Shown here: positions 2,635-63,941 of the stretch, one piece after another | Layout of the letters: every line of letters starts with the position of its first letter | Numbering within the stretch: position 1 is the first letter of the stretch | NCBI RefSeq assembly: GCF_029223525.1 | Contig: NZ_JARHTQ010000003.1 | Location: 62,001 to 126,000, forward strand | Reading direction: 5' to 3' | Origin: Streptantibioticus ferralitis | Lineage (GTDB): Bacteria > Actinomycetota > Actinomycetes > Streptomycetales > Streptomycetaceae | Length of the DNA: 64,000 nt | The notes under the pieces: generated by a model | Told to the model about the DNA's origin: nothing | The model's input: the letters and a program-made list of their open reading frames with translations, nothing else | Databases searched by the model: none | Program-made: the position numbers and the translations under genes

Positions 2635-3384
2635 ATGCCCATAGCCGCCTTTCCCGCTCTCAACCGCATGACCCGGACGACCCTGGACCGCCTCGACGGC
2701 CTGACCCGGAAGCACAAGCTCTCCGCGGCCGGTGTCGCCGTCGCCGGTGCTTCTGTCCTGGCCTTCACGGTCGCTCCGGGATCGGCGCACGCAGCGAACC
2801 TGAGCAACCCGGTGATGTCCGCCGCCATGGCGTGGAGCACGTCCAGCGACGGCGCCACCACCAAGACCGAGCAGGTCAACGTCTCCCAGCAGGCCGCCGA
2901 GGCTGTCAAGCGGGTCCAGGGCCACGCTTCGGCCCAGCACCAGGCCGCCCGGCACAAGGCCGACGAGGCCCGCAGGAACGCGCCGCAGGCCGCCAGCCGC
3001 TCGGAGTCCCGTCCGGCCGCCCCCGCGCACGCCGCTCCGGCGCAGCCCGCCCCGGTCTCGTACCCGGACAACCTCGACGGCTGGATCCGCCAGTCGCTGG
3101 ACATCATGCACCGGCACGGGATCCCGGGTTCCTACGAGGGCATCAGGCGGAACATCATCCGCGAGTCCAGTGGTGACCCCAACGCCATCAACAACTGGGA
3201 CATCAACGCCCGGAACGGCATCCCGTCCAAGGGCCTGCTCCAGGTGATCGACCCGACGTTCAACGCGTTCCACGTCGCCGGTACGTCGCACAACATCTAC
3301 GACCCGGTCGCCAACATCGTGGCCGCGTGCAATTACGCCGCGAACCGCTACGGTTCGATGGACAACGTGAACTCGGCTTACTGA
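2635..3384 (+). CDS. Secreted lytic transglycosylase (SLT-like domain) cell-wall protein
   Basis: 249 aa. The first 55 residues form a long signal peptide: a basic Arg/Lys region, a hydrophobic stretch AAGVAVAGASVLAFTVA, and an AHA-A cleavage site. Residues about 60-145 are an Ala/Gln/Pro-rich linker. The C-terminal 100 residues form a goose-lysozyme/SLT-type fold with the catalytic glutamate context NIIRESSGDPNAIN, then SKGLLQVIDPTFNAF and the Asn-Ala-Ala-Asn-Arg-Tyr motif. The protein should cleave peptidoglycan glycan strands outside the cell during growth or spore germination. The start is ATG 2635. It is a single-gene unit with its own structured leader and a strong terminator. Confidence 0.88.
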   Translation: MPIAAFPALNRMTRTTLDRLDGLTRKHKLSAAGVAVAGASVLAFTVAPGSAHAANLSNPVMSAAMAWSTSSDGATTKTEQVNVSQQAAEAVKRVQGHASAQHQAARHKADEARRNAPQAASRSESRPAAPAHAAPAQPAPVSYPDNLDGWIRQSLDIMHRHGIPGSYEGIRRNIIRESSGDPNAINNWDINARNGIPSKGLLQVIDPTFNAFHVAGTSHNIYDPVANIVAACNYAANRYGSMDNVNSAY

Positions 3385-62900: not shown

Positions 62901-62955
62901 CCCGCGCGACGATGACGGCCCCGTAGGCTGGGGCCGATCATTTCGGGAGGACAGC

Positions 62956-63315
62956 ATGAGCGCAGCAGCGCAGCACGGAGCGTCTGACGGGCCGATCATT
63001 CCCATGCCGCCGTTGACGAGGGAGGGTCTGAGAGAAGCCGTCGCAACGCTGGTTCCCTCGCGACTGCCGGAAATGTTCGGGGATATGCAGCAGGCGTTCG
63101 ACTGGGCGGCCGATCAGGGCAGTACGGAGCCCATCCGGCGGTTTTTGATCCACTGGGGTTCGATTGTCGCCATTGAGCGCGATCCGCAAAGGGCGCGGAG
63201 ACTTCATGATGCGGAGCAGCGCATCGCTGATGCGGATCCGGCCGTAAGACGGGCAGCCGTCAAAGAGGTCGGAGAGATCGTCCGCAGCGCGCGCCAAGAG
63301 GTAGCGGGTGGCTGA
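62956..63315 (+). CDS. DUF6247-like small protein, first gene of a three-gene overlapping module
   Basis: 119 aa from ATG 62956, with a strong ribosome-binding site (GGGAGGAC). A flexible 18-residue head precedes a helical domain: REGLREAVATLVPSRLPEM, then QAFDWAADQGSTEPIRRFLIHW and IERDPQRARRLHDAEQ. Proteins of this look are annotated DUF6247 in actinobacteria and are often next to small RelE/ParE-size genes, as far as I recall. The stop overlaps the next start by 8 nt. An antitoxin-like role is inferred. Residues after 85 are Arg/Glu-rich, with coiled-coil character. Confidence 0.72.
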   Translation: MSAAAQHGASDGPIIPMPPLTREGLREAVATLVPSRLPEMFGDMQQAFDWAADQGSTEPIRRFLIHWGSIVAIERDPQRARRLHDAEQRIADADPAVRRAAVKEVGEIVRSARQEVAGG

Positions 63316-63559
63316 TTGGCGGTGGGACTGGGATCCAAGCAAGGAATGGGTCACGAAGGGGATCCCAGACGCGGTGATCGCTGAGGTCGAGAAGATCGCC
63401 GCCGAACTTGCGGTAGTCAATTCCATGATCTACCTCGATGGGGCCGAATACACCGGACCGTCCCCAGGCGTGCGCATCGAGTGGCGGCCGAACGTCGCGG
63501 TTCGATATCTGACCGTCGTACGCGACGAATGCGTCTACGTGGTCGACATCATTGCGTGA
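63308..63559 (+). CDS. Small RelE/ParE-size protein (candidate toxin)
   Basis: 83 aa from GTG 63308, 8 nt inside the first gene. The sequence starts with a Trp-rich segment (MADWRWDWDPSKEWVTKG), then a helix (DAVIAEVEKIAAELAVV), and a C-terminal four-strand part (VRIEWRPNVAVRYLTVV and then CVYVVDIIA), which is the alpha-then-beta order of RelE/ParE toxins. The final YVVDIIA resembles the end strand of that fold. I see no diagnostic catalytic residues, so this stays a candidate. It overlaps the third gene by 8 nt. Confidence 0.65.
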   Translation: MADWRWDWDPSKEWVTKGIPDAVIAEVEKIAAELAVVNSMIYLDGAEYTGPSPGVRIEWRPNVAVRYLTVVRDECVYVVDIIA

Positions 63560-63941
63560 CCCCTATGCGCCGCGGCCGCGCGTCTCAACGCCGCCCGGAA
63601 CCGAAGCCGCCCTCAGGGAGGCAGTGGCGCGGCTCAGCCCTGTCAGCGTCGCCCAGTTCGATACTGAACTTCGGCAGGTGTTGAAGGCGGGGGCTCGGGC
63701 GGGAAACAGCGCAGCTCTGCACACCTTCCTGCATCGTTGGTCCGTCTTCGTCGTGATCAAGCGACAGCCGGAGCGCGCCACACGACTGCGGGAGTTCGAG
63801 CGGATCGTGAGTGAGTCCGAGGACCGGAAGGAACGACGAGCGGCAGCCGCCGGGATCGGGGCCTTGCTGGCTGAGGCCGAGGAGGCCGTCCGGCTGGCCG
63901 CCAGACCCGACTCGCCCCCCACGGGGGCGCCCGGCACATGA
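63552..63941 (+). CDS. DUF6247-like small protein, second copy
   Basis: 129 aa from TTG 63552, 8 nt inside the preceding gene. The TTG is needed: the next in-frame start would remove the first half of the domain that aligns with the first copy. Shared features are PPGTEAALREAVARLSP (like PPLTREGLREAVATLVP of the first protein), FLHRWSVFVVIKRQPERATRLREFE (like FLIHWGSIVAIERDPQRARRLHDAE, given here in part) and an acidic/Ala-rich C-terminal helix. The stop lies inside the window, so the gene is complete, but any fourth partner would be beyond the edge. Confidence 0.7.
   Translation: MRDPYAPRPRVSTPPGTEAALREAVARLSPVSVAQFDTELRQVLKAGARAGNSAALHTFLHRWSVFVVIKRQPERATRLREFERIVSESEDRKERRAAAAGIGALLAEAEEAVRLAARPDSPPTGAPGT

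Follow-up and report, generated by a model that had tools for sequence, protein, structure and literature searches.

A DUF6247 protein and a predicted RelE/ParE-fold partner as a likely toxin-antitoxin pair, followed by a probable orphan antitoxin gene, in Streptantibioticus ferralitis

Three small overlapping genes, termed A1, B and A2, were examined in a 64,000-nucleotide (nt) stretch (i.e. the window, G000:C44:62001-126000) of the 8.8-Mb genome of Streptantibioticus ferralitis. The locus probably comprises a type II-like toxin-antitoxin (TA) operon, A1-B, joined by A2, an orphan antitoxin from another subtype. The basis for this explanation is computational, namely the genes and their linkage, a fold prediction, one-sided decay, the separate origins of A1 and A2 and the existence of relatives without the insertion.

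Three overlapping coding genes

The genes and the evidence for each, including open reading frames (ORFs) and ratios of non-synonymous to synonymous substitution (dN/dS), are as follows (aa, amino acids):
62956..63315, + strand: A1, DUF6247-type all-helical protein of 119 aa, ATG start, probable antitoxin of B (ORF, DUF6247 comparison, structure model, dN/dS, one-sided decay, tree)
63308..63559, + strand: B, 83 aa, predicted RelE/ParE fold, GTG start, probable toxin (ORF, fold model, family, linkage to A, dN/dS)
63552..63941, + strand: A2, the second of the DUF6247 proteins, with 129 aa and a TTG start, probably an orphan antitoxin from another B subtype (ORF, Pfam, tree, dN/dS)

An initial annotation, made from the sequence alone, had proposed three small genes starting at 62956, 63308 and 63552 with overlaps of 8 nt each, and the ORF coordinates bear this out for both the A1/B and the B/A2 junctions (GTGGCTGA and TTGCGTGA, respectively). 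The TTG start proposed for the third gene is needed in the window genome, being the earliest start codon in the A2 frame; the next (GTG) falls within the DUF6247 domain, and the TTG is not conserved in a sister genome. The genus comparison covered three genomes, including that of the window. Against the sister (G001:C82), dN/dS was 0.10 for A1, 0.14 for B and 0.37 for A2 (Fisher P for synonymous versus non-synonymous counts of 3e-17, 3e-8 and 2e-4, respectively), indicating that all three are real coding genes and ruling out a chance-ORF origin. A2 has therefore been maintained as a protein, though under looser constraint than A1 and B.

The A-B pair recurs across Streptomycetaceae

Homologues of B were found in 101 of 297 same-family genomes at E <= 1e-3, and A is present in 91 of 197 genomes of the order. 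Gene neighbourhoods were compared in a census of 129 groups (one place being entered twice) which, together with the decay table of 128 loci described below, covers 109 of at least 150 listed B matches and all 67 listed A matches. Plain A-B accounts for 104 groups, A alone for eight and A-B-A for two (i.e. the window and its sister); the remainder comprises one A-B pair with a 27-aa A fragment (L171, G213:C66) and 14 groups that are broken variants, apart from one in which B has no A on the same strand. A precedes B in 119 of the 120 groups with B. Where the B start could be resolved (46 loci), the two genes overlap by 4 nt in 36 and by 8 nt in seven; four further loci lack a start. The frequency of these overlaps indicates translational coupling. 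Distances among A proteins correlate with those among the B proteins encoded beside them (r = 0.674 for 103 pairs; 0 of 2000 permutations). Two small, overlapping and co-inherited genes were thus found, as in a type II TA operon, and the natural unit is the A1-B pair, recurring across Streptomycetaceae. The A-B-A arrangement, put forward by the initial annotation as a possible module type, was not supported, as homologous loci carry the A-B pair without a second A and A2 belongs with antitoxins of another B subtype. No second pair of intact A genes within 1 kb was found besides the window/sister type among the order-wide A matches listed.

The window's own genome contains six A matches, and a B-like frame lies directly behind five of them, the exception being A2. 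Of these five A-B loci, two have damaged B frames. At G000:C14:88924-89530 (L002) a sound A precedes a B in which the start codon and the two invariant tryptophans are gone, and at G000:C49:6386-6970 a sound A precedes a B broken by a stop codon. A match at G000:C11:229411 was dropped because its frames are antisense to a 251-aa ORF.

Beyond the family, the B profile was matched in three of 396 genomes across the phylum, all from the same family, with 13 candidates scored per genome, such that distant relatives may be missed. No B was detected in phages at E <= 1, a DNA-level search of plasmids gave no match, and a scan of genome contigs with the B sequence alone gave no confirmed relative. 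The plasmid matches named are from Streptomyces, Kitasatospora, Embleya and one unclassified Streptomycetaceae member. In four plasmid records A and B were confirmed by the A and B profiles; A is labelled 'DUF6247 family protein' in three and 'hypothetical protein' in one, and B is a 'hypothetical protein' in all four. On a Kitasatospora purpeofusca plasmid (L196, NZ_CP108563.1, 1051-2096), A-B lies directly behind a gene annotated as a PemK/MazF-type toxin, near the linear plasmid end.

One-sided decay

The integrity of both genes was scored for the 128 loci. Both were intact at 102 loci under a lenient rule, by which L002 was counted as intact despite the losses noted above. At a further 20 loci A was intact but B was either broken (14) or not found (6); at five, A was broken and B was broken too or absent; and one (L113, G178:C1:6213300-6216300) was scored as B only. 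The six loci with no B found may have a partner too divergent to detect. On reading, L113 was found to contain an inverted A fragment ahead of a B lacking the N-terminus, an arrangement that a small inversion would leave, and was reclassified, the A fragment being one of the five broken-A loci. After this reclassification, a sound B without A was observed in none of the 128 loci. At L136 both A and B are damaged. In the 61 genomes for which A and B searches were both made, 65 loci were scored, of which 45 had both genes intact, 17 an intact A only, three a broken A and none B only; the single listed match omitted is the G011 locus (L069), where the B frame is open and A adjoins it. The binomial test for decay was run on 20 versus 1 and on 17 versus 0, with related loci taken as independent. 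Loss of B is tolerated, and no locus of this set has lost A before B, which is what would be expected of a toxic B. This pattern fits A as antitoxin and B as toxin, and points to a TA pair, in line with the TA-type assignment of the initial annotation.

Protein B has a predicted RelE/ParE fold

The structure model of B (pLDDT 94) has a RelE/ParE-like fold (i.e. BECR), so that the likeness first suggested for the 83-aa middle protein is upheld by prediction, whereas sequence profiles gave no match. B resembles BECR toxins such as RelE1/RelE2 of Mycobacterium tuberculosis and RelE of Escherichia coli in its predicted fold, its size and the order of toxin after antitoxin. Membership of the RelE/ParE superfamily was assessed by sequence with Pfam families, 13 of which are listed in PMC11980606. 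The window B had no match in Pfam, NCBIfam or PADLOC at E <= 10, and none of 42 B-family members reached a Pfam cut-off, ParE_toxin appearing once (E 0.037). Homology of B to ParE was not found by profile, as hhalign against 17 ParE rows (of 20 tried among 31 matches listed, three being dropped at contig ends) gave 1.1%, controls with reversed B columns and with A giving 0.4% and 0.2%, respectively. The B profile had six weak matches to PDB sequences, including RelE of Thermus thermophilus (2khe, E 1.4), which were not used as evidence. A likeness of the B N-terminus (WDWDPSK) to BrnT was discarded, Pfam giving no BrnT match.

Within the B family, R72 is the sole nearly invariant basic residue (97% of 102), and W4 and W6 are invariant in the 97 and 99 sequences covering them, though not in damaged copies such as L002. 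The structural match of B to RelE (2kc8) stops at RelE residue 80. The C-terminal catalytic stretch of RelE includes R81 and Y87, and it has no counterpart in B. No catalytic residue set is evident in B and the C-terminal tail is missing, which would argue against a canonical RelE RNase.

Protein A belongs to DUF6247

A2 matched DUF6247 (PF19760) with 33.6 bits, above the Pfam gathering cut-off of 26.9, and A1 is a member of the same family below this cut-off (22.0 bits, E 1.9e-4); 67 of 71 aligned A proteins had a DUF6247 match at E <= 0.1. A1 and A2 share 34% identity across 104 columns and are therefore paralogous, which agrees with their original description as DUF6247-like paralogues, A1 being the weaker member. 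The A1 model consists of five helices (pLDDT 93.7). No solved structure similar to the whole A1 model was present among the PDB rows compared; these rows contained no known antitoxin fold for A, although A may have one, and no DNA-binding fold was recognised in the all-helical model. Pfam DNA-binding families each matched at most a few of the 71 A members, and TetR_C_20, a C-terminal domain, matched five of 71 (best E 0.005). Type II antitoxins usually, though not always, have a DNA-binding domain. Pfam states no function for DUF6247, neither 'DUF6247' nor 'PF19760' was found in the open-licence PMC literature searched, and its association with a RelE-fold partner is a proposal of the present analysis.

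Other actinobacteria have DUF6247 as well, with matches at E <= 1e-3 in 16 of 296 genomes of the phylum (seven above the cut-off). RelE-size open frames, which are possible genes, lie close behind DUF6247 in seven of the 13 phylum loci read (i.e. L174, L176, L179, L180, L184, L186 and L192). DUF6247 forms the C-terminal half of a longer protein in L177, L184, L186 and L192, and the longer proteins of L184, L186 and L192 are followed by a RelE-size open frame. The N-terminal part ahead of DUF6247 in L186 has a weak match to Phd/YefM (E 0.061, under the cut-off). In L171 (G213:C66:31000-38000), the 27-aa DUF6247 fragment behind the intact A-B pair (from ~3145-3225 onward) continues in frame as a Phd/YefM antitoxin (E 1.9e-13).

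It is unlikely that A and B instead form a complex of two proteins with a regulatory or structural role, B retaining the fold only. Such a complex would agree with the lack of an evident catalytic set in B and of a recognised DNA-binding domain or known fold in A, and excerpts of PMC6262351 describe XRE-DUF397 pairs of Streptomyces, earlier proposed to be TA systems, that work as regulators. However, A and B are patchily distributed, occur in several copies per genome, are carried on plasmids and show a one-sided loss of B, as is typical of TA modules.

A2 has an origin separate from A1

The ancestry of A2 was examined in a tree of 48 rows, picked from 123 after a larger tree of all 123 rows had been seen. 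A group of eight rows (99/98 support; SH-aLRT 93 in the 123-row tree) contains A2 and its sister copy together with the A proteins of L005, L050, L170 and L060 and two from L154. The B partners in this group are of the YLGDPP type for L005, L050 and one L154 protein and of a different type for L060; for the remaining two, B is broken or missing. A1 lies outside the group. No B is present behind A2, where sequence common with the empty site of G002 starts 15 nt past the A2 stop codon. Because A2 clusters mostly with the antitoxins of a different B subtype and is without its own B, it is best read, from these sequence comparisons, as an orphan antitoxin of that subtype, with the window holding a complete A-B pair plus A2. 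Neighbouring modules exist elsewhere, as seen from two near-identical A genes ~3 kb apart in G023:C260, and loss of a second B from a tandem would therefore be an easy route. Orphan antitoxins are common in Klebsiella pneumoniae according to excerpts of PMC7192599. This placement of A2 is not firm, as its grouping with the A proteins of the L020/L021 type was not rejected (p-AU 0.247).

It appears improbable that the locus encodes one toxin with two antitoxins, A1 and A2 both neutralising B, perhaps under different conditions, in the manner of SpoIISA with SpoIISB and SpoIISC. A precedent exists in SpoIIS of Bacillus, with one toxin and two antitoxins (excerpts of PMC4803016), and the A proteins partnering the closest B relatives are about equally similar to A2 and A1. 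The purifying selection on A2 would also agree, as would the A-B-A order kept in the sister, though the sister B is interrupted at codon 14 by an in-frame TAG and the sister A1 has ATC in place of ATG, with a GTG four codons in. The placement of A2 among antitoxins mostly of a different B subtype and the rarity of A-B-A argue the other way. The A2 start is, moreover, not conserved, the open sister frame having TCG at the TTG position and an ATG four codons on, without an overlap. That A2 is a recent duplicate of A1 is highly improbable, as the two are DUF6247 proteins in tandem but of only 34% identity, and a joint A1+A2 clade was rejected by the AU test under the model used (lnL 30.0 lower, p-AU 0.0018).

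Proposed explanation and known systems

Under the preferred explanation of a TA pair plus an orphan antitoxin, A1 would be made just before B, coupled through the overlapping stop and start codons, and would bind and neutralise it. B would be a small RelE/ParE-fold toxin acting on ribosome-associated mRNA or gyrase. A2 would be the remnant of a neighbouring or acquired module of the other subtype whose own toxin gene is gone; presumably co-transcribed, it would be translated at the operon end under weaker purifying selection, and may have no role, serve as a back-up antitoxin or act as an anti-addiction protein. A wider proposal is put forward tentatively, in which B represents one more toxin family with the RelE/ParE fold, lacking the customary RNase residues, and DUF6247 is a new all-helical antitoxin class that has no DNA-binding domain of its own but in other actinobacteria follows an additional N-terminal region; in this genus, the operon would have taken in a second, non-cognate antitoxin as an insulating or anti-addiction part. 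DUF6247 would thereby gain a testable function, as would B, labelled hypothetical in the plasmid records examined; the Streptomycetaceae would gain a common, mobile TA-like module, and the operon would offer a natural setting in which to test how a toxin and a foreign antitoxin encoded together interact.

SpoIISA is a membrane protein of a toxin type that differs from B, and no relationship is indicated. SpoIIS has two genes that could neutralise one toxin, as may hold for A1/A2, but from separate promoters (excerpts of PMC4803016). Orf2769/Orf2770 of Streptomyces sp. SCSIO 02999 is a TA pair without Pfam domains (90 and 83 aa), reported only from Streptomyces (excerpts of PMC6521030). By its description, it differs from A-B in sizes and in order, the toxin being named first.

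Insertion site and promoter region

Eight module-free relatives were examined at the site of the module. In G002, G007 and G009 the sequence found behind A2 in the window directly follows the HAD gene; the other five gave no match at the site and are uninformative. As the HAD-side sequence of these three joins the sequence behind A2, a segment of ~1 kb, filled by the three genes, has apparently been gained here or lost elsewhere. Synonymous divergence is higher for the module (0.48-0.90) than for the HAD gene (0.29), and closely related modules differ in their farther flanks. Two features upstream of A1 were found by direct reading, and both are kept in the sister:
62924..62929, + strand: probable -10 element TAGGCT, putative own promoter of the module
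62945..62951, + strand: Shine-Dalgarno sequence of A1, GGGAGGA

The -10 element sits within a perfect 6-bp inverted repeat (62917-62922 / 62930-62935). TAGTCT occurs at the empty site of G002, and the -10 element may therefore predate the insertion. TANNNT (third base not T) was present in a stretch of 80 nt upstream in 74.5% of 106 A-B or A-B-A loci, as compared to 17.5% of mononucleotide shuffles. A conserved operator palindrome was rejected, as inverted repeats barely exceeded mononucleotide shuffles (mean arm 5.51 versus 5.34); arms of at least 7 occurred in 17.0% of loci versus 11.5% of shuffles, raw percentages being compared. In L080 (G009:C18), a run of CGTTTTGA repeats lies downstream of the HAD gene where the window has the module.
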